The notes beneath the pieces are model-generated. The model saw only the letters and a list, made by a program, of their open reading frames with translations, had not been told where the DNA came from and searched no databases. This document shows, piece by piece, positions 18,772 to 46,829 of a DNA stretch of 46,829 bases. Both the position numbers and the translations under genes were made by a program. Within the stretch, counting starts at the first letter, position 1. Each line of letters starts with the position of its first letter. The stretch is from Paracoccaceae bacterium (GTDB lineage: Bacteria > Pseudomonadota > Alphaproteobacteria > Rhodobacterales > Rhodobacteraceae): assembly GCA_016764785.1 (NCBI GenBank), contig JAESRG010000017.1, positions 1-46,829 of the forward strand. The letters run 5' to 3'.

Positions 18772-18775
18772 AATA

Positions 18776-18784: not shown

Positions 18785-18808
18785 CTAAAATGGTTCGATT
18801 TCTAAAAA

Positions 18809-19072
18809 TCATTTCTGTTCTTCTATAATGTCGTTGTGCCGGCGAAGCCGACTGATAATGCCGGGGTGAATTCCCCAAAGACTTCCAGTAAAAATATCGT
18901 CTGGCAGGTCCAATTGTAGTTCATATCCCGAAGGGTATGTGATCACTTTTACCGGCTTTGGATAATATCCCTCGTCCGATAGTATAGCACTTAGATAGTC
19001 TTCTCCTTTCAAAAGCCAATAGCTTTCCTCATGGCCAATTAAAATAATTGCGAATTCTACGGTTTCAGTCAT
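18809..19072 (-). CDS. Small unknown protein coupled to the sheath fusion
   Basis: An 87-residue protein I do not recognise. It is acidic in its first half, with FAIILIGHEESYWLLKGEDYL, KVITYPSGYELQLDLPDD and a basic ISRLRRHND end; there is no signal peptide or clear membrane helix. Its ATG overlaps the stop of the giant TssB-TssC fusion in a TAATG arrangement, so its translation should follow that of the fusion. It precedes vgrG by 37 bases. It could be a chaperone, adaptor or immunity-like protein, but nothing in the sequence decides this. Confidence 0.7.
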   Translation of the reverse strand: MTETVEFAIILIGHEESYWLLKGEDYLSAILSDEGYYPKPVKVITYPSGYELQLDLPDDIFTGSLWGIHPGIISRLRRHNDIIEEQK

Positions 19073-24519: not shown

Positions 24520-24524
24520 GTCCC

Positions 24525-25499: not shown

Positions 25500-25515
25500 G
25501 ATAATCTCCTGTTAA

Positions 25516-25542
25516 AGCCCACGCCTAAAATTGACGCGGGCT
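25516..25542 (-). other. RNA hairpin between the two unknown genes
   Basis: On the transcript, AGCCCGCG and CGTGGGCT can pair over eight positions, including one G-U pair, around an 11-base loop. It is followed by only a short U pair. It lies in the 50-base spacer after the stop at 25550 and before the ribosome site of the next gene. It could partially terminate or protect mRNA ends; a full terminator is unlikely because of the short U run. Confidence 0.45.
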
Positions 25543-25549
25543 GATGGGG

Positions 25550-26362: not shown

Positions 26363-26380
26363 TTCTTTGCTCCTTACAAT

Positions 26381-29080: not shown

Positions 29081-29111
29081 CTTTCATTCCTCCAAAAATT
29101 CTTTTTCTTAT

Positions 29112-30137: not shown

Positions 30138-31987
30138 CTTGCAATTTCTCCCCTGTCAGGACTGTGAATAACCGTTTCTGTGAAACTATTTACCGAAACA
30201 TACTTTGCAAAAAATCTTTGTAGCACCGCGCCCAAAACATAAACGCCCGTGCCCTCGTAAAAACTTTCGTCGAACTCGACGTTAACTTCCAGCCCACGCA
30301 CCGCCGTAGATAATATCTCGTCAGCCATGCGCCGCACAATTGGCCTGGTCCAGACCTTGGTGATGCCCTCAAGCTGCTTGGCGAGGGTTTTGTCGCCCAG
30401 CGGGCCGTAAATTCCTAACAGTTCCCGCAACGCCGCCGCCGGTTCGCCGCGGTCCGTGTCAGAAATCGACAGGTAATTCAGGCTAAGATGTGAAATCAAC
30501 CGCCACGCGCTGTCACCCTCAATCGCCAGACTGGCCCGCGGCCGCGTGATCGGCGTGAGCGCATTCACAGATTTAACCGGCCCGCCATCGGGAAGGTCAA
30601 AATCAGTATCACCGGTGCCAATCGGCAGCAACATCGGCAGGTCACGGTTAGTGCAAGTTGCCTGCACTGACAGTTGCTCAACATCGCCGCGATAGGGTGC
30701 TTGCACCTGATCCACCAAGTTTACAAACACATCTGCGCCTAAATAGGACGTCCGCGTGCCTTTGATTCGTTGACGTTCCGAGCGTTGATGCATACGTCGA
30801 CGAAGGGAATAATAGGCCGTGTAGGCCTCTCCGGCGGCAGTGAAATCATTCGATGAATAGAACGCCTCAAAATCCACATCATCTTGACCTTCACCACTGA
30901 TACCGCGCACTTTTTTGATCTCGTAAATCTCATAGTCCAGCGGCGCGGTACGGTCAGGCACGATGTGATAATCAACGTCTCGACCCGAGACATGGACGCG
31001 ATCACAGCGTTTTTCAAACAAGTTGATGGCGGGCGAGGCAAACAATTCAAACGCTTCGGGATTAATCACCGGTTTCAGTTCTGGCACTGATTGCGAGAGC
31101 AGAATAAAGATGTCGACTGTCTTTTCGTCGCCTGCCCGCTGAAAAATGGGCTTCAATCCACCAAGTTTGCTAAAGAAAAATCGATTCGGCAGCGCGTAAT
31201 ATTCCTGCAACAGCCGATACCCGTCAAAGCTTTGACCAGGAAACGGCAACAGCGCTTGTTCAGGGTCATAGCCAACTGCCTCAACCGTGTTATAACGGTT
31301 CTCGTAAACCCATGCGGCCCGTCGGTTGGTCGACTTACCGGCAACCGACATGCTGTCATTTACAATATGTTCGTACAGGCGCCACGGCTCCCAGCCGACG
31401 CCAGTCATATACAGGGTCAGGTCTTCAATGGGCAATTTGCTTAGCGGAACCTCGCCCGTCGCCTTGATCCGCAGCCTTATCGCCGCGCGAACCTTACGGT
31501 TTTCACCAACCCCTGCGGCCACGACCTCGCCGCGTCCATCCAGATATTCAGCCTCGACAATCTCAATCGGCCATAACGTTACATCGTGGGCAGTGCGAAA
31601 TCGGCACGACGTCGTATCCCCGTCCCGAAGCGGGCTGCGCAACGGTGTGCCGCGTTTTAACAAAAATCCTTCATCCATACCGCCCTGCGCCGCATCAGGC
31701 ATAAATTGCGCGATAAACATGCTGGGGGTCGGGGCCAAATAGTGCGGATAGATAATTTCCAGCAAATGCTGGGTCAACACCGGATATTGCAGGTCCAGTT
31801 CCAACTGCACCCGCGCCGCCATAAAGGCAAAGCCTTCCATCATCCGTTCAACATATGGGTCTTTGATTTCCACCCCGTCCATGCCGAGCCGAGAGGCAAT
31901 CTTAGGATAGGCTTCTGCAAATTCCTCGCCCATCTCGCGCATAAACGCCAGTTCTTCTTCGTATTTCTTGAGTATGCGCGTGTCCAT
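30101..31987 (-). CDS. tssF: T6SS baseplate protein TssF
   Basis: A 628-residue TssF (ImpG/VasA). The typical start MDTRILKKYEEELAFMREMG is followed by FAEAYPKIASRLGM, DPYVERMMEGFAFMAARVQ and YPVLTQHLLEIIYPHYLAP. The rest of the protein matches family length. It is the main wedge protein of the baseplate. It starts 10 bases after the tssE stop and overlaps tssG at its 3' end. Confidence 0.96.
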   Translation of the reverse strand: MDTRILKKYEEELAFMREMGEEFAEAYPKIASRLGMDGVEIKDPYVERMMEGFAFMAARVQLELDLQYPVLTQHLLEIIYPHYLAPTPSMFIAQFMPDAAQGGMDEGFLLKRGTPLRSPLRDGDTTSCRFRTAHDVTLWPIEIVEAEYLDGRGEVVAAGVGENRKVRAAIRLRIKATGEVPLSKLPIEDLTLYMTGVGWEPWRLYEHIVNDSMSVAGKSTNRRAAWVYENRYNTVEAVGYDPEQALLPFPGQSFDGYRLLQEYYALPNRFFFSKLGGLKPIFQRAGDEKTVDIFILLSQSVPELKPVINPEAFELFASPAINLFEKRCDRVHVSGRDVDYHIVPDRTAPLDYEIYEIKKVRGISGEGQDDVDFEAFYSSNDFTAAGEAYTAYYSLRRRMHQRSERQRIKGTRTSYLGADVFVNLVDQVQAPYRGDVEQLSVQATCTNRDLPMLLPIGTGDTDFDLPDGGPVKSVNALTPITRPRASLAIEGDSAWRLISHLSLNYLSISDTDRGEPAAALRELLGIYGPLGDKTLAKQLEGITKVWTRPIVRRMADEILSTAVRGLEVNVEFDESFYEGTGVYVLGAVLQRFFAKYVSVNSFTETVIHSPDRGEIARWPATSGTRRVI

Positions 31988-31997
31988 TCAGCCGCCC

Positions 31998-32492
31998 CTA
32001 TGCTTTCACGACGGTCATTTCGCCCGATGCTACGCTTAGCTCCGACCGCATGTATATTTCCATAGGCACAGGTTGCGCCCACAGGTCCGCCTGAATATTA
32101 AACACAATTTTTGATCGAGACGTGCCTTCAAGATTGGTCAACTTTACTGACAGGCTACCTGCAACAATTCGGGGTTCAAACGCCGTTATCGCTTTTTCCA
32201 AAAGCCGCTCTAGTTCGTGCGGGCGAGCCTCAGTTGATCGTTTTCCTGAAATATCAACGATTCCGAAATTAATTGTTGATTCCGAGGCATACGGAAATTC
32301 TTCGGGGTCCATGTCAACCGACTGATTGACGGTGTTCAACAGCCAGCCAAGATCACGCAACACAATCTCGCGCAACCGACGCATGTCGATCACCTTTTCA
32401 CGGGCGGTTTCTTTCAATTCAGTTGGTTTATCATCGGTTAACCGATCCAACAGCGATGGTTGCAATCGCTCGGTTATTCCTGGATCAGCCAT
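31998..32492 (-). CDS. tssE: T6SS baseplate protein TssE (gp25-like)
   Basis: A 164-residue gp25/lysozyme-like baseplate protein. I choose the ATG at 32492 (MADPGITERL), which overlaps the tagJ stop by 8 bases, instead of 32528, because the extra 12 residues look non-native. Motifs: QPSLLDRLTDD, LREIVLRDLGWLLNTVNQS, SINFGI-like STINFGIVDISGK and FEPRIVAGSLSVKL. TssE nucleates sheath polymerisation. It is followed by tssF after 10 bases. Confidence 0.93.
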   Translation of the reverse strand: MADPGITERLQPSLLDRLTDDKPTELKETAREKVIDMRRLREIVLRDLGWLLNTVNQSVDMDPEEFPYASESTINFGIVDISGKRSTEARPHELERLLEKAITAFEPRIVAGSLSVKLTNLEGTSRSKIVFNIQADLWAQPVPMEIYMRSELSVASGEMTVVKA

Positions 32493-33342
32493 TGGTGCTT
32501 TCTGCACTATCTTCATCTTCGTCAACAATAGGGTCGTCGATTTGCATTTCAGTGTCGAAAATAATCTCGCGAATATCCATCAATGGCAAATCGCCCGCAT
32601 CAGTTGCAAATAGCCGCTGCCCGCTGCCAATGAATGTCTCGTCGCCCAGATCATTCCATTCGGTGATTTTTGCCAGCTTGACCTGATCGTTATCCGATGC
32701 CGGTGCGCCGGGATAGCGGGTCGGAATAAACCCGACAACCTCACCACCATTTATCCAAGTGATCTGCACTGGTGTCCACACGTTGTCACGCAGATCCACT
32801 GGTTCTTCCATTTTCAGTTTCTTAATGCTGGAAAACGGTACCCAGTAATAATTACCGTTCACAACCACTTCAAGGATCGGCCCAAGGCGCATGTCCGCGT
32901 CGGCGATCCACTCAAATTTTTCACCATCCGCCGTGCCCGAGGATGTTGGTGCTTTGTCAAAAGCCGCTTCCCGCAACTTGGCGGCGGTGGCGGTATCGCC
33001 ACGGCTCAAGGGCTCCAACGCCTGAATAAGTCCGGCGACCCATGCTTCGGGTTCGCCAAAAATCATTGGGGTTTTTTCGGCAATAAATACTTTTTCCCGT
33101 ACCAACTCACAAATAATCGCCTCACGATAACTTTGCACCATTGGTAGGGTGATCGGGTCCATTTCCCCGATAACTTTCAACTGGGTCACTGCACGCTTCC
33201 ATTCGCCAAGCACACAAAACAATTGAAAGAGGAAAATGCGGTGTTTCGTATTGGACGGGTCTTTGCGCACATTGGCCGTCAACGCGTCCAGCGTTTCTGC
33301 CAAATTGCCTGTTTTAATAATTTCTTCAGCAGACATGCTCAC
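32485..33342 (-). CDS. tagJ: T6SS accessory protein TagJ (ImpE/SciE)
   Basis: A 285-residue ImpE-family protein. It starts with a TPR-like helical part (LAETLDALTANVRKDPSN; RIFLFQLFCVLGEWKRAVTQ) and continues with FEWIADADMRLGPILEVVVN and YYWVPFSSIKKLKMEEP. In other systems TagJ binds the TssB N-terminus and modulates ClpV-sheath interaction. That is relevant here because the same TssB N-terminus occurs in two proteins. It follows hcp by 104 bases containing a strong hairpin. Confidence 0.92.
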   Translation of the reverse strand: MSMSAEEIIKTGNLAETLDALTANVRKDPSNTKHRIFLFQLFCVLGEWKRAVTQLKVIGEMDPITLPMVQSYREAIICELVREKVFIAEKTPMIFGEPEAWVAGLIQALEPLSRGDTATAAKLREAAFDKAPTSSGTADGEKFEWIADADMRLGPILEVVVNGNYYWVPFSSIKKLKMEEPVDLRDNVWTPVQITWINGGEVVGFIPTRYPGAPASDNDQVKLAKITEWNDLGDETFIGSGQRLFATDAGDLPLMDIREIIFDTEMQIDDPIVDEDEDSAESTNG

Positions 33343-33358
33343 CCTTCCCGATTACAAA

Positions 33359-33391
33359 GAACACGCCCGATACAACGCACCGGGCGGGTTC
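33359..33391 (-). terminator. Strong hairpin downstream of hcp
   Basis: Arms 33359-33369 and 33381-33391 pair at 10 of 11 positions around an 11-base loop. On the transcript it reads GAACCCGCCCG, loop, CGGGCGTGTTC and then TTTG. It lies between the hcp stop and the tagJ ribosome site. The short U run suggests partial termination or 3'-end protection of an abundant hcp message, not a complete stop. Confidence 0.6.
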
Positions 33392-33446
33392 AATTCTGGA
33401 TCGCGATGCGGCAGGCCAAACGACCAGCCACATCTTAAAAGTCGGA

Positions 33447-33986
33447 TCAAGTAACGGCGTATTGTGCCGTATTTTTGATGCGGCTCCATTCGGCGCTTTT
33501 CTTGTTGGCGCTGTCCATGGACCCGTCTGCTTTTTGTGGAATATATTCGATTTTGGTCGCACCGTACTGGAAGGTAACGCTTTCTTCGCAGATATCGTCA
33601 CCGTCAGAACCGCTCCATTCGATGTCTTGAACCATCAAATGCTTGAAGTAGAACTTCATGAACGTAGAGCCCGACGATTCTGTCGACCCGCCAGAACGGC
33701 GAAGCTCAACGATTGCTTCCTCAAAGTGGCGGCCAACAGTCAGCATCTGAAACAGACCAGGCGAGCCCGCGTCGGTTTTCTTGGTAATGCTGAATTCCTT
33801 GAAGGTCGCTTTACCGGCGCCACCGCCACCGCTTGAAGACCCGATGTTGATGTTGTTTTCTGCGCCAATGGTGAAACTAATCAGTTCAAAGGCTTTTTTG
33901 TCCTTGAATACCTGATCCTGAGTTTCGCCAGGAACTTTTGATTGGTCAGCTGCAGCTGTAAAATAGAAAAATGCATCAAATGCCAT
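33447..33986 (-). CDS. hcp: T6SS tube protein Hcp (TssD)
   Basis: A 179-residue Hcp. The start MAFDAFFYF is followed by IPGE-like KVPGETQDQ, FTIGAENNINIGSSSGGGGAGKATFKEF in pieces, and FMKFYFKHLMVQDIEWSGS. It stacks as hexamers to form the inner tube that is expelled. The length is a little above the usual 160-170. It lies between tssC and tagJ with spacers of 84 and 104 bases that each contain a hairpin; most other genes in the series are much more tightly packed, which suggests separate control of its mRNA. Confidence 0.95.
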   Translation of the reverse strand: MAFDAFFYFTAAADQSKVPGETQDQVFKDKKAFELISFTIGAENNINIGSSSGGGGAGKATFKEFSITKKTDAGSPGLFQMLTVGRHFEEAIVELRRSGGSTESSGSTFMKFYFKHLMVQDIEWSGSDGDDICEESVTFQYGATKIEYIPQKADGSMDSANKKSAEWSRIKNTAQYAVT

Positions 33987-34038
33987 TATTTCATCTCCTA
34001 ATGATGTTTATGTTGTGGCTCGTATCTGAGTCGTGCCC

Positions 34039-34054
34039 CGGGGGGTGACCCCCG
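34039..34054 (-). other. GC-rich hairpin upstream of hcp
   Basis: In the 84-base tssC-hcp spacer CGGGGG and CCCCCG pair perfectly around a 4-base loop. There is no following U run, so it is more likely an mRNA processing or stabilising element at the hcp 5' end than a terminator. Confidence 0.5.
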
Positions 34055-34070
34055 TTGCGTTATTATACTA

Positions 34071-35564
34071 TCATTTCTTCTCAGAAGGCAGTTTTGATAC
34101 TAATCGTAACGAAACAGATAGCCCTTCAAGCTGATAGTGCGGGCGAAGGAAAAACTTCGAAGAGTAATAACCGGGGTTACCCTCGACCTCTTCGACGACC
34201 ACCTCAGCGGCAGCCAGCGGTTTTTGAGCCTTTACCTCTTCCGACGAAATGTCGGCGTTAAAGTCTACATAGTTGTTTATCCACTCCTGTAGCCAGTTCT
34301 GCATATCGTCACGTTCTTTGAAAGAACCGAGTTTATCTCTAACGATACACTTCAGATAGTGAGCGAAGCGGCAAGTTGCAAATAAATAAGGTAACCTTGC
34401 GCCAAGATTCGCGTTTGCGGTAGCGTCAGGGTCGTCATATTCAGCCGGTTTATGCAGCGACTGGGCGCCAATAAATGCAGCTAAATCAGAGTTTTTACGG
34501 TGTACAAGCGGCATCAGGCCGTTATTTGCAAGCTCTGATTCACGCCGGTCAGAAATCGCGATTTCTGTTGGGCATTTCATGTCCACACCACCGTCATCGG
34601 ACGGGAATGTGTGGGTTGGAAGCCCCTCAACGGCACCGCCGGACTCAACGCCGCGGATACGGGTACACCAGCCATATTGCTTAAATGACTTGGTGATATT
34701 CACCGCCATACCATAGGAAGCATTCACCCACGAATAGTGACCGCTATCTGCACCTTCGGTATCCTCCTCAAACGCGAATTCCTCTACAGGGTCGGTTTTT
34801 GCGCCATATGGATGACGCCCAAGGAAGCGCGGCATAGCCAACGCCAGATACTGACTGTCAGCGCTTTCACGCAGCGACCGCCAAGCAGCATATTCCGGGG
34901 TTGAGAAGATTTTGGTCAAATCCCGCGGATTGGCCAATTCGCTCCAGCTATCCATCTGCATCAGCGATGGCTCAGCGCCCGTCAGGAACGGCGCGTGGGC
35001 TGCTGCCGCAACCTTGGACATCTCACCCAGCAATTCCACGTCAGGCGGCGAGTGATCAAAGTGATAGTCACCCATGATGCAGCCAAACGGTTCACCACCG
35101 AACTGCCCATATTCTTCTTCATACAGTTTTTTGAAGATCGGCGACTGATCCCAAGCCGTACCCTTGAATTTCCGCAAAGTTTTCCCGAGGTCTTTTTTCG
35201 AGATATTCATCACCCGAATCTTCAGCTGCTCATCGGTTTCGGTGTTGTTCACCAGATAAGACAAGCCACGCCAAGCGCTTTCCAGCTTTTGGTATTCATC
35301 GTTGTGAATGATCAGGTTCACTTGCTCGGTCAGGGTCTTGTCGATCTCGGCAATGATGCCTTCGATGGTTTTCAACGCATCGTCAGATACCAGACTGGTA
35401 TTGGCAAGCGCCTGCTGGGCCAGCGTTTTTACCGCTTCTTCAACGGCAGTTTTTGCCGCATCCGACTTGGGCTTGAATTCTTTTTGCAACAGGTTTGCAA
35501 AATCATCATTTGCAAAAATAGATTCGGTGGCGCCAGCTTGGGCTTCGGTTTCTGCTTCAGCCAT
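34071..35564 (-). CDS. tssC: T6SS sheath large subunit TssC
   Basis: A 497-residue canonical TssC (VipB/ImpC). Motifs: YQKLESAWRGLSYLVNNTET, DYHFDHSPPDVELL, LALAMPRFLGRHPYGAKTDP, FAFEED, CRFAHYLKCIVRDKLGSF and the C-terminal HYQLEGLSVSLRLVSKLPS. With TssB it polymerises into the contractile sheath. Its start overlaps the tssB stop in a TAATG arrangement, so the two are translationally coupled. The TssC-like part of the giant fusion is clearly related but much more divergent. Confidence 0.96.
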   Translation of the reverse strand: MAEAETEAQAGATESIFANDDFANLLQKEFKPKSDAAKTAVEEAVKTLAQQALANTSLVSDDALKTIEGIIAEIDKTLTEQVNLIIHNDEYQKLESAWRGLSYLVNNTETDEQLKIRVMNISKKDLGKTLRKFKGTAWDQSPIFKKLYEEEYGQFGGEPFGCIMGDYHFDHSPPDVELLGEMSKVAAAAHAPFLTGAEPSLMQMDSWSELANPRDLTKIFSTPEYAAWRSLRESADSQYLALAMPRFLGRHPYGAKTDPVEEFAFEEDTEGADSGHYSWVNASYGMAVNITKSFKQYGWCTRIRGVESGGAVEGLPTHTFPSDDGGVDMKCPTEIAISDRRESELANNGLMPLVHRKNSDLAAFIGAQSLHKPAEYDDPDATANANLGARLPYLFATCRFAHYLKCIVRDKLGSFKERDDMQNWLQEWINNYVDFNADISSEEVKAQKPLAAAEVVVEEVEGNPGYYSSKFFLRPHYQLEGLSVSLRLVSKLPSEKK

Positions 35565-36076
35565 TATTCAGCCTCCCCGTCATTGCTTTTCGGCTTAGGG
35601 GTAGACCCCAGCGCTTTCATCAATGTCGGATCCTGAGTAATTTTTGCCATCAGATCTTCGGCGCCAGTTTTACCGTCCATATAGGTCAGCAAGTTCGACA
35701 GCTGGGTGCGGGCCTCAAGCAGTTTACGCAGCGGTTCGACCTTGCGGGCAATGGCAGCAGGACTGAAATCGTCCATGCTTTCAAAGGTAATATCCACCGC
35801 CATGTTGCCCTCGCCGGTCATGGTGTTAGGCACCGAGAACGCCGCCCGGGGCTTCATGGATTTCATCCGGCTATCAAAGTTATCAATATCAATCTCAAGG
35901 AATTTACGATCAGCAACCGCCGGCAGCGGCTCTTCCGATTTACCCGAAAGGTCAGACATAACGCCCATCACAAACGGTAGTTGAATTTTTTTCTCGGCTC
36001 CGTACAGCTCCACATCATATTCGATCTGAACACGCGGTGCGCGGTTCCGCGCGATGAATTTTTGACTACTAGACAT
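35564..36076 (-). CDS. tssB: T6SS sheath small subunit TssB
   Basis: A 170-residue TssB (VipA/ImpB). The start SSSQKFIARNRAPRVQIEYD and the later LPFVMGVMSDLSGKSE, FLEIDIDNFDSRMKSM and LRKLLEARTQLSNLLTYMDG are family hallmarks. It pairs with TssC in the sheath. About 45 residues near the N-terminus are identical to the start of the giant fusion protein, though the DNA differs at synonymous sites. A purine-rich AAGGAAGGAA ribosome site precedes the start. Confidence 0.96.
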   Translation of the reverse strand: MSSSQKFIARNRAPRVQIEYDVELYGAEKKIQLPFVMGVMSDLSGKSEEPLPAVADRKFLEIDIDNFDSRMKSMKPRAAFSVPNTMTGEGNMAVDITFESMDDFSPAAIARKVEPLRKLLEARTQLSNLLTYMDGKTGAEDLMAKITQDPTLMKALGSTPKPKSNDGEAE

Positions 36077-36133
36077 TATTGTCGATTCCTTCCTTAAAAT
36101 CCCTAAACTTCATTACTTTTGCATAAAACGAGG

Positions 36134-37171
36134 CTAATATTCGTCGTTGCGAACCCCACTCAGCGTTCTAACCTGATCCATCCCGCTAGACGCGATGTCT
36201 TCCATAATGGTCATAAAATCTGCCGAAACAAGCTTTCGCGCCCGTTTGAGCAACATTGGAACAGGGCTTGATGGCTCCGAGCGCGCGTAATATTCGCAAA
36301 TCTTGTCGATCATCATCGTCACGTCCGCGGTCGAATTAATCGCCCCGCTAATTGAACCACCTGATGGCTGCATTACCGGCTGAGCACCCCCTGCAGAAGC
36401 CTCATTCTTGTCACTCGGGGCGTCATCAACAACGCCACCCACCGCATTTGCGATTGCCGTCTGCGCCTTGAACAACGCTTTATCCAGCTCTCCTAAATCG
36501 GGACTGTCCATGCCGACTTTTTCGTCCAGCAGAGCAATAATTTTTTTCAAATGGTCACGCGAATTTGACACTGCGCCTCGAATTGCGGCCATTGTTTCTT
36601 TGTCAGTATCCTGAAACGCCGCCGAAATCGTCGCTGTATCCGGCATGGTCTCCATATCCGACGGCATCGGGCTTTCCCCGCCAGCCACCGCCATATCCCG
36701 CAATGTCCAGCGCCCCATCGCGCGACTATCGGTCAATGGCGCACGCCGCACTGCTTTCAACACGGCCGCTGAGTCAGACAGGCCGCGCAACGCATTCATC
36801 CGCATCGTCGGGTCGTCGTCATCCTCGTCGTCCAGTTGAGGGTAAACGCCCACCCAATACTGATCGAGCACACCATGAATATATGCCAGCACGCGCTCAA
36901 ACGGAACAAAGCCCTCGGTGTGCAACACGCTTTCAGCCAGATATACAGCGGCACGCAGGTCTTTGGAACGCTCCAGAACCCCCAGCGCCATCGCGGCAAC
37001 CTTGTTGAAATCCACGCCTTCGGCAGCGATTACCGAATCACCAACCTGCTGCTCCTCTTTGGCGACAGCGACTGTTTCCAGTTCAATAAAATCGGGGTCA
37101 TATTCCAAGTCTTCCCCACACGGAGAATCGCCTTCAAACGCGGCCAGCAAGACATCGATGTCTATTTCCAT
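36134..37171 (-). CDS. tssA: T6SS assembly protein TssA
   Basis: About 345 residues starting MEIDIDVLLAAFEGDSPCG; adjacent ATGs at 37174 and 37171 both follow a GGGGG site, and 37207 is unlikely. The ImpA_N domain (about 1-135) has SPCGEDLEYDPDF, DLRAAVYLAESVLHTEGF and YWVGVYPQLDDEDDDDPTMR. The C-terminus is short and helical (ICEYYARSEPSSPVPMLLKR), the short ImpA-type form. TssA recruits baseplate and sheath parts. It is the first gene of the tss series. Confidence 0.93.
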   Translation of the reverse strand: MEIDIDVLLAAFEGDSPCGEDLEYDPDFIELETVAVAKEEQQVGDSVIAAEGVDFNKVAAMALGVLERSKDLRAAVYLAESVLHTEGFVPFERVLAYIHGVLDQYWVGVYPQLDDEDDDDPTMRMNALRGLSDSAAVLKAVRRAPLTDSRAMGRWTLRDMAVAGGESPMPSDMETMPDTATISAAFQDTDKETMAAIRGAVSNSRDHLKKIIALLDEKVGMDSPDLGELDKALFKAQTAIANAVGGVVDDAPSDKNEASAGGAQPVMQPSGGSISGAINSTADVTMMIDKICEYYARSEPSSPVPMLLKRARKLVSADFMTIMEDIASSGMDQVRTLSGVRNDEY

Positions 37172-37174
37172 CAT

Positions 37175-37425
37175 TCCCCCGAAGATATGGCTTATAAAAA
37201 AAGCCACGCATATTTATTAGGTATTTCTGACCAGTCTAGGACTTAAAATCTGTTTCGGCAATATTTTTAATTGAATAATTGTCATTGTTTCTGGCACATT
37301 AACCTTCGTATGGCAAATATTTTTAATCCGGTATCGGACCATTATTTTGTCACGATCCAGTGTTACACATCGACACTTACGGCTTAACTGCCTAACCTGC
37401 CCAGAAATAGCGAACGAGGACTTCC
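37175..37425. promoter_or_regulatory. Divergent control region of the tss series and the M15 peptidase
   Basis: This 251-base AT-rich spacer is the longest gene-free stretch and must hold the promoter of tssA and that of the peptidase. A near-identical direct repeat is present: GGCAATATTTTTAAT at 37257-37271 and GGCAAATATTTTTAAT at 37312-37327, about 55 bases apart. I could not assign convincing -35/-10 or -24/-12 boxes. Confidence 0.55.
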
Positions 37426-38241
37426 ATGAAATTTGCGAGTATTTTTTTGGCATTTGCAATTTTGGCTGCACCAGCAGGCTGGTTTTTGGCCCAGACCCTG
37501 TTCTGGAACACGACGGCTTTCCCCAGTCGCGCCGAATTTGAGGCGATGGAGGAGAAAGTGACGGCTCTGACCATCAACTTCAACACCCTCCAGCAAAAGG
37601 TCGGCATTCTTGAAGGCCGTGGGGTCGCGGCCACCACCACAACCTATTCCGATGCCGAAGAAACGTTCGATTCGCTGGCCGATTCGTTTGCGCAAGTTGC
37701 CCTGATTGCAGATCGCCGCAACGTGAATGAAGGGCTGACAAATTCGTCGTCCAGCTATCTGACGGGTCTGTTTGGACCACCGCGCCAAGACATGACCAGC
37801 GATTGCCAGCCCATGACAAACCCGATTCTAAAAGACTTGGTGCAAACCGTTGACGTTGGCCCCATTCGCGTCACCATGCTGGAACCGGCTATTATTTCTC
37901 TGCGGCAGGTCTTTCGCAATGTGCAAATTTTTGAACCTGAACTTTATGCCCGCATCTCAACTGCTGGGTCTCTGTGTGTGCGTCTGATCCGTGGCTCTGA
38001 AACCTCGATCTCGACCCACGCATTCGGCTTGTCGGTTGACCTGAACATCGACGGACAGCTGGACACGCTGGGCGACGACCGCACCCAGTTGGGCCTTATT
38101 TTATTGGCAGATTTCTTCCACAAAGAAGGCTGGTATTGGGGCGCAGGCTTTAGCCGCGAGGACTCGATGCATTTTCAGGTTTCCCGTGAAAAGATCGAGG
38201 CCTGGCGGGCTTTGGGACAAATCCCGAGCGGTGCAGACTAG
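37426..38241 (+). CDS. M15-type zinc peptidase, membrane anchored
   Basis: A 271-residue protein with an N-terminal signal/anchor helix (about 4-25), a short coiled-coil spacer (about 35-65) and a D-Ala-D-Ala carboxypeptidase/endopeptidase-like domain. The metal ligands fit STHAFGLSVD (His198, Asp205) and EDSMHF (His249, with Glu245 as likely catalytic base). The domain should cut peptidoglycan peptides in the periplasm. It is divergent from tssA, which suggests a role in opening the wall for the T6SS; a secreted effector is less likely because of the anchor. Confidence 0.8.
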   Translation: MKFASIFLAFAILAAPAGWFLAQTLFWNTTAFPSRAEFEAMEEKVTALTINFNTLQQKVGILEGRGVAATTTTYSDAEETFDSLADSFAQVALIADRRNVNEGLTNSSSSYLTGLFGPPRQDMTSDCQPMTNPILKDLVQTVDVGPIRVTMLEPAIISLRQVFRNVQIFEPELYARISTAGSLCVRLIRGSETSISTHAFGLSVDLNIDGQLDTLGDDRTQLGLILLADFFHKEGWYWGAGFSREDSMHFQVSREKIEAWRALGQIPSGAD

Positions 38242-39435: not shown

Positions 39436-40160
39436 TAAAGCTGTCCCGCAAGGTTCTCCGCTACACCGCGCATTTCGGCGATCTGGCGACTGAGTTGTTG
39501 AAGTCCCTGATCTATCGGCCTTGTATCCAGACCAACAGCGACGACGTTTCTGGCATCTGTGAACTCGTTAAACCGACCGGCGGCACCATCCGCGGCGCCG
39601 TCCATCTCTGCAAGATTAGCCTGTGCTTCAGCAATTTCGCGTGCCAGCGAGGCTGAGTCAGCACTACCAGCGTTTACAGCAGCTTGCAACCGGTTCAATT
39701 CGCGCACCTGATTGGCCAGGACAACCTGCATAACCTGCAACGTAGCCTGTGTTTCTGAAATACTCGCGGCAAGATTGGCCCGCAGCGCTGCGGTCTGTTC
39801 CTCGGAACTCGCGAAATTATCCTGCAAGTGTGCGATATAAGCCCCGGCAACCGCACCAGCCCCTGCGCCAATTACGAAAAAACCAACGGCGCCAATATTT
39901 CCGACCAGAGCATCATTGCTTCTGCCACTATTGCCAGCTAACAGCCGCAAACCAAGCCCAGCAGCACCGCCAAGTGCAATCGCCTCGGTAACCGTTGTCC
40001 GCATCGCAGCGGAATGGCTGCGTAAACTGGCTTCTTCAGGTGATTGCCCCACACTTCCGGCGGAAACCGACTGGCCACTTGGTGCGTCACATGCTGAAAG
40101 CGAGATCGCTACAATGCTACAGATTACAACTAGTTTACTGGTAAAAAATCGATAAGCCAC
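39435..40160 (-). CDS. Glycine-zipper coiled-coil lipoprotein, copy 1
   Basis: A 241-residue lipoprotein with lipobox LSAC (Cys24), a glycine-zipper segment (VIGAGAGAVAGAYIAHLQ) and a coiled coil (TLQVMQVVLANQVRELNRLQ). It is the tandem paralogue of the gene that follows. Its start lies 31 bases inside the 3' end of the caspase-like gene, so the protease and the two lipoproteins are translated together. It may organise an envelope complex with them. Confidence 0.85.
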   Translation of the reverse strand: MAYRFFTSKLVVICSIVAISLSACDAPSGQSVSAGSVGQSPEEASLRSHSAAMRTTVTEAIALGGAAGLGLRLLAGNSGRSNDALVGNIGAVGFFVIGAGAGAVAGAYIAHLQDNFASSEEQTAALRANLAASISETQATLQVMQVVLANQVRELNRLQAAVNAGSADSASLAREIAEAQANLAEMDGAADGAAGRFNEFTDARNVVAVGLDTRPIDQGLQQLSRQIAEMRGVAENLAGQL

Positions 40161-41698
40161 GCATAAGTTCCTTGGGTTTCTTCCGTTGAATTCGTTACAT
40201 GTTTAATAAAAAGAGCCGCGTCATCGGCAAGACGTTGCTCCAGCCGGTTAAGGGCAGTTTGCGACCCTGTCGCCTCAATTAACGAGGCGTCAATCCGGTC
40301 GGGAAAATGCAACTGGGCGCGATCAATCAACTGTTGATAATACAAACGGCTTTCATCTAATCGGCCCATCACCAGTGCCAAGTTAGCTTCAATTGCCGTA
40401 ATATCTGTGCGTGCGGTTTCCAGTAAAGGCAGGGCCGCGTTATTGGTTTTTGCAATTTCCTCAATCTGGAAAAAGGCGTCATTCGCAATTTTCAGCGTGC
40501 GGTCAATTGCAGACAACGCGATAATATCAGTCCGTAATTGTTGCGCTGTCGTCGCCCCCAGAAAAATCGTCATCCGGGCTGCGTCCTGATACAGTCGGTC
40601 GGCGCTCGCCTCGTCGGGGTTGGGTAATTGCACACGATAAAGGTCAAACGCGTTCGCCAGTGCATCAAGGGTTGCGTCGGATAAATCCCGTGTCGAGGGC
40701 AGAAAGCCCAGCACGATCAACGCGGCCTCTACCCGTGCCAATTCTTCAGGGCGCAGAATATCGAGGCTCGATTGTCCTGATGGTGCGCCCGCCGCGCGCG
40801 CTTGCCGGATCATTGATATCCGGTCGCGCGCAAACTGGCTGAATACACCGTTTGGAAAATCATCCAGATACGCCCGAAACGGAGGAATGTCTGTCTGTGC
40901 GGAAATCTGCCGCCATGCCTGCAATTCTCGTGAATAATCACTGCTGGCAATGACTAGATTACCTTGACCGGCGAAATAATGCTCGCCCAGAACGGCCTCT
41001 TCTACCCATGGAATTTGCTGGCCACGGGATTCCAGAATGACCTGCTGGCGCACCCGGCCAAACATGATCCGCGCTTCGACCCCTTCGGTCGCGATATGGC
41101 GAATGATGGCTTTGGTGAAAATACTGTTATCGCCGGAGCCGTCATAAGCCACGTTCCCCGGATCGGTCGCATAGGCAATCAACAGTCCGGCACCGCCGCG
41201 CGACCGCGCCAAGCCTTGCACGACTTGTCCCGTTTCGACAAACGGATTGTTCCGGCATGCGTCAAGAATAACAATGCCGATATCTGGCTTCGCCGCCTCA
41301 AAAACCTGCGTAATCCGCGTCATCGTAATAGAGGCATTCTGCAATGAATTTTCGTCCATCGCATCAAAATCCCGCGTAATCAGATGGTTCTCGCCATTGA
41401 TCTGCACCCCGTGACCCGCAAAGAAAAATACTGCCATGTCAGCGCCTTGTGCGGCAATTTCAAAAGCATCAAGACTGGCCTCAACACCGCTGCGATCCAG
41501 GTCAACTGCCGAGAATATTTCAAACCCGAGCGCACTTAGTGCATCACCCAACGCCGCCACGTCATTGGCCGGATTGCGCAGGGTTAGGTCTGGGTTGTCG
41601 TAATTGGCATTACCAACAAGCAAGGCAACCCGGTTTTGGGCAAATGTTGCAAATGGCGCCAATAGAAACACGGCGATAACAAAAATAATTTTAGTCAC
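40130..41698 (-). CDS. Secreted caspase-like peptidase (C14 family)
   Basis: A 522-residue protein with a Sec signal peptide ending FATFAQ (about residue 21). The caspase domain (about 22-250) has the start RVALLVGNANYDN, the catalytic His96 in FFFAGHG and the catalytic Cys148 in LDACRNNPF, so it should be active. A degenerate peptidoglycan-binding-like helix set follows (VEAALIVLGFLPSTRDL, about 310-345), then a helical C-terminal region. It would act in the periplasm or outside. It is transcribed toward three lipoprotein genes. Confidence 0.92.
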   Translation of the reverse strand: MTKIIFVIAVFLLAPFATFAQNRVALLVGNANYDNPDLTLRNPANDVAALGDALSALGFEIFSAVDLDRSGVEASLDAFEIAAQGADMAVFFFAGHGVQINGENHLITRDFDAMDENSLQNASITMTRITQVFEAAKPDIGIVILDACRNNPFVETGQVVQGLARSRGGAGLLIAYATDPGNVAYDGSGDNSIFTKAIIRHIATEGVEARIMFGRVRQQVILESRGQQIPWVEEAVLGEHYFAGQGNLVIASSDYSRELQAWRQISAQTDIPPFRAYLDDFPNGVFSQFARDRISMIRQARAAGAPSGQSSLDILRPEELARVEAALIVLGFLPSTRDLSDATLDALANAFDLYRVQLPNPDEASADRLYQDAARMTIFLGATTAQQLRTDIIALSAIDRTLKIANDAFFQIEEIAKTNNAALPLLETARTDITAIEANLALVMGRLDESRLYYQQLIDRAQLHFPDRIDASLIEATGSQTALNRLEQRLADDAALFIKHVTNSTEETQGTYAWLIDFLPVN

Positions 41699-41755: not shown

Positions 41756-41785
41756 TACCGCTTCTGCAACAAAGCAGAAGCGGTA
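41756..41785 (-). terminator. Perfect 12-bp hairpin after the pseudo-caspase gene
   Basis: TACCGCTTCTGC at 41756-41767 pairs perfectly with 41774-41785 around a 6-base loop. It begins about five bases past the stop at 41790 of the gene read on this strand. There is no U run on either side, so it is a terminator-like or mRNA-protecting hairpin. It separates the pseudo-caspase from the caspase operon. Confidence 0.55.
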
Positions 41786-41789
41786 CTAA

Positions 41790-42902
41790 TTATTCGATAA
41801 ATTCACCAAGTTGGCTTACCGTCAGAACCCCGGTTTGCTCTGCGCTGACGGATTGCTGATAAGCTTCGATTGACCGCGCGGTCTGCCGCCCAAAAATACC
41901 GTCAATCAGGCCAGAATAAAACCCGAGGTCTCGCAGTCCACGCTGGATTCTCCGTTTTTCAGCACGCGACAATCCGCTTTCCAAAGCACGCAACAAATCA
42001 AGAGACAGCACCGTTACCTCAACCTGTTCGACGTCTTCTACAACAGGTTCTTCCACAACGACATCCTCTGGCGCCGTGTCGGCAACAAGCGGAAGGTTCA
42101 ATCCGTTTGTTTCAGGCGCACCAGCTGTTGCGCCGATCGCCTCAACAACCGGATCCACGACATTGGCACTTTCAGTGGCTGGTGCAATCTCAGCTGTTTC
42201 TGCGCTTCCGGACGAGTCATCGCCGCGCCCCTCAACAACAGGTGTCTTGATGATGATCGCTCGGTTGGGAACATAAGATACGGTAATTTCCACCTGAGCG
42301 GTCAGATCGTTCAGCAATAACGCCAGTTCCATAACCGGGCTTTGACTATGCTGCGCAAATATGTCTGACAAAGTCATCGCTGATCCAGCCTTTACCATAA
42401 TGATCGGGCTGGTTCCAGCGCGCTGCACAGGCGCAATCTGTGCAAGCGTCACGCCTTCCGGTAGTTCTGAGCCAAGATCGCTGGAATGCACAAATACCGC
42501 ACCACCAGTTCCTGCAAGTGCCGCGGCCCGCGCCATGGCCGAGATCGGAATTGCCTGAGTCAGCAAATCAGAGCCGCGACGCAGTTCAATTCCCGACGGC
42601 GCAATAAACTCCCGGTCACCGAGCATAAGAATCGGTGCGTCCACAAAAACCAAAGCGATATCGTTATCGAGCGCGGCAGCTGCGAATCGTTTCAACACGG
42701 AACGTAATTCAGACGCATTGGGTGATTCGACTCGCAACGTTTGTGCGTTCAATACCTCAAGCGTCTGAATAATATTATCAGAGCTTGGGTTATAATCCGC
42801 AGTGGTTAATACCAACGCAACTATTTTCACTTGATTTTCTTGCGCAAACAACGTCACTGGCATCACCAACAACGAAATAATTACTAATAACTTTTTAAAC
42901 AT
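41790..42902 (-). CDS. Pseudo-caspase with peptidoglycan-binding domain
   Basis: A 370-residue secreted protein (signal ending TLFAQ, about residue 21). Residues about 25-150 follow the caspase fold of the neighbouring protease, but the His motif position reads FVDAP (86-90) and the Cys motif position reads FVHSSDLG (137-144), so both catalytic residues are missing. An acidic, Pro/Val-rich linker follows. A PG_binding_1 domain ends the protein (about 312-368: EKRRIQRGLRDLGFYSGLID, GIFGRQTARSIEAYQ). It may be a non-enzymatic, wall-bound regulator of the active caspase. Confidence 0.82.
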   Translation of the reverse strand: MFKKLLVIISLLVMPVTLFAQENQVKIVALVLTTADYNPSSDNIIQTLEVLNAQTLRVESPNASELRSVLKRFAAAALDNDIALVFVDAPILMLGDREFIAPSGIELRRGSDLLTQAIPISAMARAAALAGTGGAVFVHSSDLGSELPEGVTLAQIAPVQRAGTSPIIMVKAGSAMTLSDIFAQHSQSPVMELALLLNDLTAQVEITVSYVPNRAIIIKTPVVEGRGDDSSGSAETAEIAPATESANVVDPVVEAIGATAGAPETNGLNLPLVADTAPEDVVVEEPVVEDVEQVEVTVLSLDLLRALESGLSRAEKRRIQRGLRDLGFYSGLIDGIFGRQTARSIEAYQQSVSAEQTGVLTVSQLGEFIE

Positions 42903-43028
42903 AGGGCTGTCCTAATTGGGTTACACGTGAAAAACTACGTTATCTCCACTAAAAGTAATCTAGCGAAAATCGATAAATAGTATTACACCTATACTTCATG
43001 GTGCAAAGACTAAAAGAGGAAACTACTA
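42903..43028. promoter_or_regulatory. Divergent promoter region, pseudo-caspase and sensor-kinase
   Basis: A 126-base AT-rich spacer between oppositely transcribed genes. It must carry start signals for both sides. The sensor gene has an AGAGGAAA ribosome site 6-7 bases before its ATG. I did not find promoter boxes I would defend. Confidence 0.5.
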
Positions 43029-43901
43029 ATGCGGCTAAGAACAAAATTCAATCTCGTCCTAATAGTCGCATGCTTTTTAGGCCTTTCTGCGGCATCATTT
43101 CTAACGTATCGAGCCGCTCAACAAAATGCACTGCAGGAAATCGAGAACGAGATCGCCCTGATCCGTGCAAATGCATTGGCGGTGCGGAACTATACCTCAA
43201 CGGGTATTAAACCTTTGCTATCAGATGGCAATGATATTCTGTTTTTGCCTCATTCTGTACCATCCTTTTCGGCACAAACAGTTTTTGCCAAGTTTCAAGA
43301 AACTTTTCCGGATTACTATTATAAAGAAGCGGCATTGAACCCGACCAACCCCGATGATCTTGCGGAAGATTGGGAGGCCGTGTTAATTAACCAGCTGCGT
43401 GCCAATCCCGACCTGGATCGTATTTCAGTTATTCGCGATACCAGCGCCGGGCGGGTATTTGCCGTTGCATTTCCATTCACAATAACCAATCCAGGCTGCC
43501 TCGATTGCCACTCAGACCCGGCCATTGCGCCAGCAGCAATGATAGACTTATATGGCACGGAAAACGGCTTTGGCTGGGAAATGAACGAAACAATCGGCGC
43601 GCAAATCATCTGGGCTCCGATGTCACTAGCCGATCAGCGTGCAATGGATTTAATCGTGGTCATCATGCTGGCCATCGTCGCCGCCTTTGCTGTCGTCATT
43701 GTGCTTGTTAACGTAATGTTGTCACGAATCGTTCTAAAACCTGTTTCGGTTATGTCCGAAATTTCCGAGCAGGTCAGCATGGGCGACTTCTCGGCACCTG
43801 AATATGTGAAAAAAGGGAAAGACGAAATCAGTTCGCTGTCCACGTCATTTAACCGTATGCGCCGCTCCCTTGATAGTGCCATGAAACTATTGGATGATTA
43901 A
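43029..43901 (+). CDS. Membrane sensor with CxxCH haem motif and HAMP domain, no output
   Basis: A 290-residue protein: transmembrane helix about 8-26, a periplasmic domain of about 180 residues of the Tll0287-like (DUF3365) type, a second helix (about 207-229) and a HAMP domain (about 230-285). The sensor domain contains CLDCH (157-161) in NPGCLDCHSDP, a c-type haem attachment motif. There is no kinase, cyclase or methyl-acceptor domain after HAMP. The Ser/Thr kinase gene follows 38 bases later on the same strand, so the sensor probably signals to that kinase. Confidence 0.87.
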   Translation: MRLRTKFNLVLIVACFLGLSAASFLTYRAAQQNALQEIENEIALIRANALAVRNYTSTGIKPLLSDGNDILFLPHSVPSFSAQTVFAKFQETFPDYYYKEAALNPTNPDDLAEDWEAVLINQLRANPDLDRISVIRDTSAGRVFAVAFPFTITNPGCLDCHSDPAIAPAAMIDLYGTENGFGWEMNETIGAQIIWAPMSLADQRAMDLIVVIMLAIVAAFAVVIVLVNVMLSRIVLKPVSVMSEISEQVSMGDFSAPEYVKKGKDEISSLSTSFNRMRRSLDSAMKLLDD

Positions 43902-43939: not shown

Positions 43940-45274
43940 ATGTCTACTGACATCCCGCAAAGTGTTGGGAAATACCGTATTGACGGCATCCTCGGTGAGG
44001 GGGCTATGGGCGTGGTCTATCGCGGCCATGACCCTCATATCGATCGCGTGGTTGCTATTAAAACGCTGCATACCCATCTGATGGACAATTCCGAACGTGC
44101 TTCGTGGCTAGAACGATTCGCGCGCGAAGCAAAAGCGGCAGGTCGGGTGCTACATGGCAATCTGGTCACGATCTTTGATTATCTGGAGCAGGACGAGCAA
44201 CCCTATCTGGTGATGGAACTAATCAATAGCGAGACGTTGCAGGACCGCATCGCGCGCCGCCCACTGCCAAACCTACAGGAATTCGGGTCAATCATGACCC
44301 AGATGCTGGCCGGGCTGGATGCCATCCACGCCGCAGGTATTGTGCATCGTGACGTCAAACCGGCCAATGCGCTGTTACTGCCTGATGGTCGTTTGAAAAT
44401 CGCCGATTTTGGCGTGGCCCGGGTGGAATCGCTTGGCGCTACCAATGGTGGCATGATCGGCACACCTGACTATATGTCGCCGGAACAATTCATGGGGTAT
44501 CAGGCTGATCACCGCGCAGATATTTTTGCAGCTGGCGTGATCATGTTTGAACTGCTGACGGGCCGCAAACCGTTTGAATCCAACTCCCTTGGTGAGCTGA
44601 CCCAAAAAGTCATCTCCGGTAACTTTCTGCAACTCGCACATATCGCCCCTGAACTGCCGCCGGCGCTGCACCAACTCTCGGCCGCGACACTGGTCGCCGA
44701 TCCGAACAACCGCATTCCGAATGCGCGCGCGTTTGCGAATGCAATCCATGCCGCGCTACGCAATATTGATCAACAGGTGATGCGAGATACAGAACGCACG
44801 ATTGTCGCCATGCCTGCCGGGGCCATTGCTCCACAAGTCTTGTCGCAAACGCTGGCACAGCAAATGCCGAAATCGGTGTTGTCGCGGGTTGAAACCTTGC
44901 TGACCGAACAAATCGGACCCATTGCCAAAGTCTTGGTGCGTCGGGTTTCCAACGCAACAACGGATACAAATCAGTTGATTGACCAACTCGCAGCAGAAAT
45001 CGGGCCTGAACATCGCGACCAATTTCGCGCCGCCGTTCGGGCCCATCTGGGTCAAACCGGTAGCGTTGTTTCCACGACAATCGCCGGCGTGCTTAGCCCT
45101 GAATTGTTAGAGGCCCTCACCAAGCAACTGATTCCCCATATCGGTCCAATTGCCAAGGTTCTGATCAAAAAAACCGCCAAAACCTGCGCCACGCGTGAGG
45201 AATTGTGCCAAACTCTGTCGGGTCACATCGACGATGACAAAAGCCGCAAAGAGTTTCTAAGCACGATGGCCTGA
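43940..45274 (+). CDS. Soluble Ser/Thr protein kinase (PpkA-like)
   Basis: A 444-residue Hanks-type kinase. Gly-loop GEGAMGVVY at 19-27, Lys41, catalytic HRDVKPAN at 136-143, DFG at 156-158 and GTPDYMSPEQ after the activation loop are all intact. There is no membrane helix, unlike PpkA of many T6SS. The C-terminal part (about 300-440) has a 76-residue duplication marked by IGPIAKVL at 325-332 and 401-408. It may phosphorylate TssL or another T6SS part, reversed by PppA encoded at the other end of the window. It is probably co-transcribed with the haem sensor. Confidence 0.92.
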   Translation: MSTDIPQSVGKYRIDGILGEGAMGVVYRGHDPHIDRVVAIKTLHTHLMDNSERASWLERFAREAKAAGRVLHGNLVTIFDYLEQDEQPYLVMELINSETLQDRIARRPLPNLQEFGSIMTQMLAGLDAIHAAGIVHRDVKPANALLLPDGRLKIADFGVARVESLGATNGGMIGTPDYMSPEQFMGYQADHRADIFAAGVIMFELLTGRKPFESNSLGELTQKVISGNFLQLAHIAPELPPALHQLSAATLVADPNNRIPNARAFANAIHAALRNIDQQVMRDTERTIVAMPAGAIAPQVLSQTLAQQMPKSVLSRVETLLTEQIGPIAKVLVRRVSNATTDTNQLIDQLAAEIGPEHRDQFRAAVRAHLGQTGSVVSTTIAGVLSPELLEALTKQLIPHIGPIAKVLIKKTAKTCATREELCQTLSGHIDDDKSRKEFLSTMA

Positions 45275-45366: not shown

Positions 45367-46071
45367 CTAAAGCGTAACCTGAATTTCAACACGCCGATTG
45401 GCGTCAGCGCTCGGGTTGCTGCTGTCCTTAAGACGCCCTTCCCCCATACCGACTGCTTCCAGCAGATTGGCATCAATGCCACATTCACGCACCATATACC
45501 GCACAACTTCGTCGGCACGCGCTTGGCTCAAGGTCAAATTATACTGCACCGAACCCGACGCATCCGTATGGCCAATAATCTGGTACGCACCGCTGCTCGA
45601 CTGGGCAATCTGGTTTAACGCAGCCGCGTTCACATCCGCCGCGTCAGGTGCCATTTCGGCCATGGCAGCCATCTCAAGCGAGGTTTCTTCGCTGGACTGA
45701 ATTGCCACGCATAGCGCATTCACCTGTTCACGTGATTCTGATTTCAGCAACGCTGAATCGTATTCGAAAAAGATCGTCAGATCGATTACCAGTTCTTCCG
45801 GAACAATGACCCCGTCGGTGCTGGCGGTAATCAAGTCGCCGTCAACTTCGGTGCCAATGGCGACCCCTGATCCATCCACAGCAGGGTTTGAATTAATCAC
45901 AAACCCGAGCGCCCTCGTGCCGCCTTCGCCTGTGTCACTATTGGCCAGCAATTCACGCTGGGCCTTTAGCAACGCCAATATTTCGTCAGCAGTCATAGCC
46001 TGCGCATTGGCCACAATCGGCGTTAAAAAACATGCGGCGGCGCACAAAGTGGCAATTTTCTGAAATACCAT
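45367..46071 (-). CDS. OmpA-family peptidoglycan-binding protein
   Basis: A 234-residue protein with a signal peptide ending ANAQA (about residue 25), a middle region (about 30-105) with no recognised fold, and a C-terminal OmpA domain (about 100-234). The domain has FFEYDSALLKSES, YQIIGHTDASGS, LSQARADEVVRYMV and NRRVEIQVTL. It should bind peptidoglycan in the periplasm. Unlike most OmpA-like proteins the N-terminal part is short and does not look like a beta-barrel. It could help anchor the envelope assembly encoded nearby. It is convergent with the kinase. Confidence 0.88.
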   Translation of the reverse strand: MVFQKIATLCAAACFLTPIVANAQAMTADEILALLKAQRELLANSDTGEGGTRALGFVINSNPAVDGSGVAIGTEVDGDLITASTDGVIVPEELVIDLTIFFEYDSALLKSESREQVNALCVAIQSSEETSLEMAAMAEMAPDAADVNAAALNQIAQSSSGAYQIIGHTDASGSVQYNLTLSQARADEVVRYMVRECGIDANLLEAVGMGEGRLKDSSNPSADANRRVEIQVTL

Positions 46072-46128
46072 AATGCATTCTTTCCTTAAAATAAAATGGT
46101 CTCGACCAATATAGCCGACTTTGAAATT

Positions 46129-46150
46129 TGCGGCAATCTCCGCAGTTTTT
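46129..46150. terminator. Weak bidirectional hairpin
   Basis: TGCGG and CCGCA pair around a 6-base loop (46129-46144), followed on the plus strand by GTTTTT. On the minus strand it would follow the gene ending at 46177, with AAATTT after it. The stem is only five pairs long. Confidence 0.35.
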
Positions 46151-46176
46151 AAATCTATACCCTTTATGTGGTTATT

Positions 46177-46829
46177 TCAGGGCTTGGTTACAAGATAGCG
46201 AGACGCAACCAATGTATGCCCGTCCAGAACAATCGCATGAGATCCGCTCAGTGCGTCACGAAACGCCTCGACTGATTCTGCACGCGGGCGCAACCCGTCA
46301 AATAGTGGCGTTTCGGTAATAATCGCAACAATAATGCCGGTGCCGAAAGGCGGAATTACATTAAACCCGACACGTTCGGTTGTCGCCTCATCCGCAGGAA
46401 AGGCCAACCGAACGGTGCGCACCCCGTTTTCCTCTGTTCCGATTGTCGGAAGCACATTTCCCGAGCGGTCTTTATGAGGCAACAAGTGGTAAACCGTCCC
46501 CTCGGCGTCCACATAAAATCCATAGAAAAATCCGACCCGAGATGCTGGCATCAGCACATCGATCACCGGGTTTTCCCCCTCAAAATAGACCCCATCCGGC
46601 GAGAACCCTTCCCGGCGACCATAGCTATAGACGATCTCCACACCGATAGAGGGCAAGGCTGGCAACATTGATTCAATTCCGCACACCGCCGGATTCAGAA
46701 CCGCCAGATTGAAGTCGATTTCGGGCCCTGTGACCAGATCTTGCAACACAAGATCAATCACCTCGGCATCGTCTTCGCGCGCGATAATCCCCGATACCGT
46801 CAGCCGGTCATCAGCGCTGGCCGTCACGC
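46177..46829 (-). CDS. DUF4384-like C-terminal fragment, 5' end outside window
   Basis: The reading frame enters from the right edge. The GTG near 46827 may be internal, so the true start is probably beyond the window. The visible 216 residues have an N-terminal BON-like region (VSGIIAREDDAEVIDLVLQD; NPAVCGIESMLPALPSI) and a C-terminal DUF4384-like beta domain (VGFFYGFYVDAEGTVYHLLP; FGTGIIVAIITETPLF). Such domains often sit at the end of Ser/Thr kinases, PpkA-like proteins or caspases. The full protein might therefore be another regulator of the island. Family call is from memory. Confidence 0.6.
   Translation of the reverse strand, partial: VTASADDRLTVSGIIAREDDAEVIDLVLQDLVTGPEIDFNLAVLNPAVCGIESMLPALPSIGVEIVYSYGRREGFSPDGVYFEGENPVIDVLMPASRVGFFYGFYVDAEGTVYHLLPHKDRSGNVLPTIGTEENGVRTVRLAFPADEATTERVGFNVIPPFGTGIIVAIITETPLFDGLRPRAESVEAFRDALSGSHAIVLDGHTLVASRYLVTKP

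Follow-up and report, generated by a model that had tools for sequence, protein, structure and literature searches.

The window analysed here, that is, the whole stretch of 46,829 nucleotides, is a Rhodobacteraceae draft contig (Paracoccaceae bacterium, GenBank assembly GCA_016764785.1, contig JAESRG010000017.1) from a genome that is 76% complete. It carries a type VI secretion system (T6SS) cluster and, beside it, the genes for a predicted exported pseudo-caspase with a peptidoglycan-binding (PG-binding) domain, an active-type C14 caspase, a Tll0287-HAMP membrane protein and a soluble Ser/Thr kinase (Table 1). The pseudo-caspase gene lies on the strand of the caspase gene, 91 bp away from it, and diverges from the HAMP gene. 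Promoter and terminator scans around the pseudo-caspase gene remained at chance level, apart from the hairpin in front of the caspase gene. In a related genome (G094), the DUF4384 domain represents the C-terminus of a second kinase.

Table 1. Genes and features of the window around the pseudo-caspase locus
Feature	Position	Strand	Remarks
T6SS cluster	6382..37207	-	PP2C, TagF, TssM, TssL, TssK, TagH/FHA, VgrG, ClpV, TssG, TssF, TssE, Hcp, TssC, TssB, TssA
M15 peptidase	37426..38241	+	General T6SS-linked accessory module
Active-type C14 caspase	40130..41698	-	AGHG and DACR intact; predicted to be exported; no detectable PG-binding domain; found as a neighbour in a single clade
12-pair hairpin	41756..41785		Between pseudo-caspase stop and caspase start; z -5.2; no T-run towards caspase
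Pseudo-caspase with C-terminal PG_binding_1	41790..42902	-	ATG start; 370 aa; predicted to be exported (signal peptide ~1-21)
PG_binding_1 domain	41820..41954	-	Residues 317-361; Pfam
Caspase-fold (p20-like) domain	42237..42836	-	Residues ~23-222; without His and Cys (FVDAP; FVHSSDLG)
Intergenic region, 126 bp	42903..43028		Common to the divergent pseudo-caspase and Tll0287-HAMP genes
Tll0287/DUF3365-HAMP membrane protein	43029..43901	+	c-heme Cache (CLDCH); no output domain; Pfam Tll0287 E 3.5e-33; periplasmic Tll0287 domain at residues ~31-197
Soluble Ser/Thr kinase	43940..45274	+	GxGxxG, HRD, DFG intact; proposed sensor output
OmpA-domain protein and DUF4384 fragment	45367..46827	-	General T6SS-linked accessory module

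The pseudo-caspase has a predicted Sec-type signal peptide and no further hydrophobic segments. Its PG_binding_1 domain (PF01471, E 8.1e-10), which the original prediction had described as clear, is well beyond the Pfam cut-off (39.2 bits against a gathering score of 23) and would hold the protein at the cell wall. This is its sole Pfam domain, the N-terminal half giving no significant match. Past the p20-like domain, Pfam and AlphaFold reveal only a long, low-confidence, disordered linker (residues 223-297) and the PG-binding domain; a p10 domain is absent.

The nature of the N-terminal half was addressed by profile and structure comparisons. A full-length search of 199 genomes of the family returned mostly the PG-binding domains of other proteins, and an N-domain profile composed of three orthologues, with caspases left out, was used instead. 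In 395 Rhodobacterales genomes it retrieved six strong orthologues, the window among them, followed by C14 caspases at E 1e-8 to 1e-3, their C14 identity being read from sequence and checked by Pfam in a sample. Comparison of the pseudo-caspase domain with nine of these C14 caspases (hhalign) gave a probability of 98.7% and E 2.9e-16 over 177 columns. The AlphaFold model, based on an alignment of nine orthologues, has a mean pLDDT of 73.5 (mostly 75-94 for residues 27-220 and about 90 for the C-terminal domain), and the order of strands and helices in its N-terminus is that of the caspase p20 topology. Its best PDB matches in Foldseek are MALT1, CED-3 and caspases (lowest E 7.7e-8; 82 matches at E <= 0.001). 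TM-scores against caspases are modest, 0.3-0.4 by query length and up to about 0.59 by the length of the caspase domain, a level to be expected when a fused protein includes a long stretch of disorder. Moreover, two divergent orthologues, G352 and G594, pass both the Pfam C14 gathering score (24.4 and 37.9 bits, respectively, vs 21.4) and the PG_binding_1 cut-off. These data support the original claim that the caspase fold is kept while the catalytic His and Cys are replaced, and structure prediction, suggested at that time as a check, relates the N-terminal fold to caspases. We thus regard the reading frame as encoding a predicted dead caspase (p20) fold joined to a wall-binding domain.

The position of the catalytic His is occupied by Pro in the window protein and by Pro, Ala, Thr or Tyr across the orthologues (Tyr in G352 and G594), while at the position of the catalytic Cys the window protein has Ser and the other orthologues have Ser, Gln, Asn, Thr, Ala or further residues. 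None of the aligned orthologues has His or Cys in the catalytic columns, although both residues are intact in the adjacent and in the T6SS-linked caspases. G594 represents a readable intermediate, having YYCGYAVEFNGRSFLLP and LLLLDVFR where the active proteins have YFAGHGVEVQGENFLIP and IVILDSCR. Cysteine is missing altogether from the mature protein of the window, and the DGxGxNSxF loop is absent. Judging by this residue loss, the pseudo-caspase is probably devoid of proteolytic activity. All aligned Rhodobacterales orthologues except G352 have Asp at the second position ahead of the former catalytic His, a hint that the pocket may have been repurposed. Purifying selection acts on the gene, with dN/dS values of 0.09-0.18 in the caspase domain and, in most comparisons, of 0.04-0.17 in the wall domain, where one close pair reaches 0.41; the linker evolves faster (0.25-0.57). 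The protein is maintained, and the gene is not decaying.

The original prediction also held that the neighbouring active caspase has a worn-out version of the same C-terminal domain and that the pair are diverged duplicates. The first point was not upheld: comparison of profiles (hhalign) gave a probability of 0.2-0.3% for a PG-binding domain in the active caspase, and with an HMM from 77 PG-binding domain sequences the real C-termini of active caspases scored within the range of shuffled ones. Profiles rather than structure were used for this judgement because the AlphaFold model of the active caspase is poor (pLDDT 52.5). As for duplication, a tree of 29 caspase domains places the pseudo-caspases in a single clade (100/99) and the adjacent caspases in a separate one, and the support for their joint grouping (52/0) neither shows nor rejects a common duplication; the two proteins appear to be deep paralogues. 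Some T6SS-linked caspases carry PG_binding_1 after Sel1 repeats (Pfam), so the fusion of a caspase with a wall domain is an old theme in this group.

Two side observations concern the same surroundings. After the active caspase gene, two tandem paralogous exported proteins, ~55% identical over their conserved part, are encoded (38713-39435 and 39435-40160, minus strand), which occur as a single copy in G094 and L065-L068. The window's own genome encodes a second degenerate caspase of 493 aa with two PG-binding domains on another contig (C25, L002:949-2430), in which the His is kept (TGHVIHFG) and the Cys is lost (FLGLADRN).

To characterise the gene neighbourhood, we used sixteen distinct pseudo-caspase loci, the counts referring to loci and not to independent events, with several of the orthologues coming from drafts. 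The genes for the Tll0287-HAMP protein and the Ser/Thr kinase adjoin the pseudo-caspase in all sixteen, among them those of Rhodovulum and of a genome from a different alphaproteobacterial family. The CxxCH motif is present in 14/14 of the HAMP proteins, and the kinase motifs are intact in 10/10 of the kinases. Six loci have the co-directional order pseudo-caspase, HAMP, kinase, tssA, tssB, tssC. Exported proteases are less regular companions, found beside the pseudo-caspase in 11/16 loci: a C14 caspase on the same strand in six (the window, G094 and L065-L068) and an S8 subtilase as the co-directional upstream gene in five (L034, L070, L071, L075 and L076). Neither protease is there in the other five, and three pseudo-caspase genomes of 99-100% completeness (G189, G248 and G481) have no C14 match anywhere.

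In the loci of the S8 type (L075:7276-9681, L034, L070, L071 and L076), genes for an ECF sigma factor and a zf-HC2 anti-sigma-like protein are followed by the subtilase and then by the pseudo-caspase; in L075, the C-terminus of the anti-sigma-like protein matches a subtilase prodomain (PF22148, E 1.7e-4). A function in anti-phage defence was considered and rejected: PADLOC has no match for the pseudo-caspase or the HAMP protein, and its matches for the kinase and the caspase look like those to generic domains.

The association with T6SS is evident at the level of genomes, as T6SS genes are present in 15/15 of the pseudo-caspase genomes tested vs 111/395 of Rhodobacterales at large; on the plasmid of Rhodovulum and in several draft genomes, no T6SS lies within ~10-20 kb of the pseudo-caspase. 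Caspase-like proteins as such are also linked to T6SS: 18 of their 46 matches in T6SS genomes lie no more than 40 kb from tssK (binomial 1e-19, with relatedness ignored), one of these being the G352 pseudo-caspase. In most of the twelve T6SS-linked caspase loci that we read, the caspase is accompanied by a kinase with DUF4384, OmpA, M15, PP2C and TagF. These loci (L087-L098) represent a recurrent accessory module of the Rhodobacterales T6SS, in which the caspase often has Sel1 and PG_binding_1. The caspase and the pseudo-caspase appear to be paired in the window because its clade has the two modules next to each other.

Conversely, when the HAMP protein served as the query (E <= 1e-20), eight of the 395 genomes were positive, seven of them with a pseudo-caspase beside the HAMP gene. 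In the eighth (G327), an MscS-like channel is the partner, with neither kinase nor pseudo-caspase there. The C-terminal ~50 aa of this channel (L086:9440-11811) resemble the C-terminus of the window kinase, and may possibly be a shared docking segment. Outside Rhodobacterales, Tll0287-HAMP/kinase pairs occur in plasmid T6SS clusters of Paraburkholderia, Caballeronia and Skermanella. In four Burkholderiales records, the slot directly before the pair is occupied by a gene for a periplasmic-type protein. Three of the four proteins were compared and are homologous (33-34% identity); Pfam recognises FecR in 2/4, including the fourth record. These proteins share the gene slot with the pseudo-caspase and differ from it in having a FecR domain in place of the caspase fold and no wall-binding domain that we could find. 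In Skermanella, the pair stands without an extra periplasmic gene and hence can do without such a subunit. The filling of the pseudo-caspase slot by another periplasmic fold is the strongest argument that the role of the pseudo-caspase belongs to the sensor-kinase pair.

We therefore suggest, with slightly better than even confidence, that the pseudo-orthocaspase acts in the periplasm, anchored to peptidoglycan, as an accessory (input or adaptor) subunit of a sensor kinase which consists of two pieces and controls T6SS. The PG-binding domain would anchor the protein at the wall, and the pseudo-caspase domain would bind a periplasmic ligand or protein and act on the Tll0287 Cache domain. The output-less HAMP protein could then pass its state to the soluble kinase, which would phosphorylate a T6SS target such as FHA/TagH, with PP2C and TagF acting in opposition. 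Both the interaction and the signalling are inferred, and gene neighbourhood alone cannot distinguish a sensor subunit from another periplasmic accessory. Less favourable to this view are the Skermanella pair without a periplasmic partner gene, the loci that have no T6SS within ~10-20 kb and, in the window, the orientation of the gene, which runs with the caspase and away from the HAMP gene. A more specific version, that a catalysis-free caspase fold serves as a wall-anchored receptor feeding a c-heme (possibly NO) sensor and a Ser/Thr kinase which time T6SS firing, with the receptor slot exchangeable and of the FecR type in Burkholderiales, is offered tentatively, as somewhat less probable than its negation.

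Inactive proteases that regulate their active relatives are known in eukaryotes, and the original prediction had accordingly seen the pseudo-caspase as a regulator which is tethered to the wall and acts on the active caspase next to it. The same may be proposed for whichever periplasmic protease adjoins, given the C14 caspase on the same strand in six loci, only 91 bp away in the window, and the co-directional S8 subtilase upstream in five. However, C14 and S8 proteases are unrelated, so a single regulator for both must be generic; the five loci with neither protease, the three near-complete genomes without any C14 caspase and the many genomes with T6SS-linked caspases and no pseudo-caspase also speak against it, as does the 12-pair hairpin between the two genes in the window. 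With the caspase adjacent in 6/16 loci and the HAMP sensor and kinase, which the original prediction did not consider, as the constant neighbours, this regulatory function is unlikely and the original claim was probably wrong, although a role towards the protease is possible in those clades where a C14 or S8 gene adjoins. That the pseudo-caspase helps the kinase to sense the envelope is more likely than that it regulates the active caspase.

Both associations would be united if the pseudo-caspase were a substrate: the protease would cut its linker, and the domain freed from the wall would inform the HAMP-kinase sensor of damage. The long, disordered and rapidly evolving linker, the exported protease in 11/16 loci and the constant sensor-kinase partner agree with this scheme, yet no cleavage site was identified in the linker, five loci are without an adjacent protease and the proposal is purely inferential, which makes it improbable in our opinion. 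Least of all do we expect a structural or wall-remodelling T6SS accessory that anchors or clears peptidoglycan with no signalling, as OmpA and M15 proteins may do, since despite the PG-binding domain and the regular presence of OmpA-domain and M15 peptidase genes near T6SS in this group, the constant neighbour is the sensor-kinase pair and not the OmpA/M15 module, and most T6SS genomes of the order have no pseudo-caspase.

The proposed sensor subunit can be compared with several known systems. Published pseudo-orthocaspases, which include those of Rhodobacterales and in which the commonest changes are His to Tyr and Cys to Ser (PMC6426788), as well as SyOC of Synechocystis (PMC7889975), similarly have the C14 p20 fold without p10 and with both catalytic residues replaced, and Tyr at the His position is seen here in the two divergent orthologues. 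In contrast, this position is mostly Pro, Ala or Thr in our family, the proteins are fused to PG_binding_1 and predicted to be exported (the main text of PMC6426788 does not mention peptidoglycan), and a T6SS sensor kinase, rather than photosynthesis, is the proposed association. The T6SS-linked Rhodobacterales orthocaspases with Sel1 and PG_binding_1 also combine a caspase and a wall-binding domain in one exported protein, but they keep His and Cys, possess Sel1 repeats, and have STPK-DUF4384, OmpA and M15 as neighbours rather than Tll0287-HAMP.

The T6SS threonine phosphorylation pathway (PpkA-PppA-Fha with TagQRST; TssW-PpkA-Fha) is similar in that kinase, PP2C, FHA and TagF are present in the cluster. 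T6SS kinases receive input from envelope proteins, as in TssW-PpkA-Fha (PMC12607579), and an envelope-located protein upstream of the kinase is what we propose here. In Acidovorax and Pseudomonas, PpkA itself spans the membrane and extends into the periplasm, whereas here the sensor and the kinase are separate and the periplasmic protein is the pseudo-caspase. On the sensor side, Tll0287 domains are described as having c-heme attached covalently, and one membrane protein that has Tll0287 and HAMP but no output domain binds NO in vitro with high affinity (PMC12889525). These sCache_heme (Tll0287/DUF3365)-HAMP sensors resemble ours in membrane location, c-heme Cache and HAMP domains, the conserved CxxCH and the lack of an output domain. 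They differ in that the passages on the NO-binding example give it no T6SS link, and the words "type VI" are absent from the text. Among open-licence PMC papers, we found none linking DUF3365 to T6SS and none joining caspase, T6SS and Rhodobacteraceae.

For bacterial pseudo-caspases almost no functions are known, and this family supplies a precise and testable set of partners. It suggests a route by which T6SS of Rhodobacterales and some Burkholderiales might sense the envelope or nitric oxide without the periplasmic domain which PpkA has of its own, using the sensor and the kinase as separate proteins plus an exchangeable periplasmic subunit.

The T6SS cluster of the window also encodes a 1538-aa protein (19072-23688, minus strand) that begins with TssB (VipA) and contains TssC (VipB) close to its end, with ~1000 residues without assignment between them. 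This double-domain protein is additional to the normal tssB and tssC products and is encoded beside an ion-channel gene (23689-24519); both genes are conserved in G094 (L033, ~70% identity).
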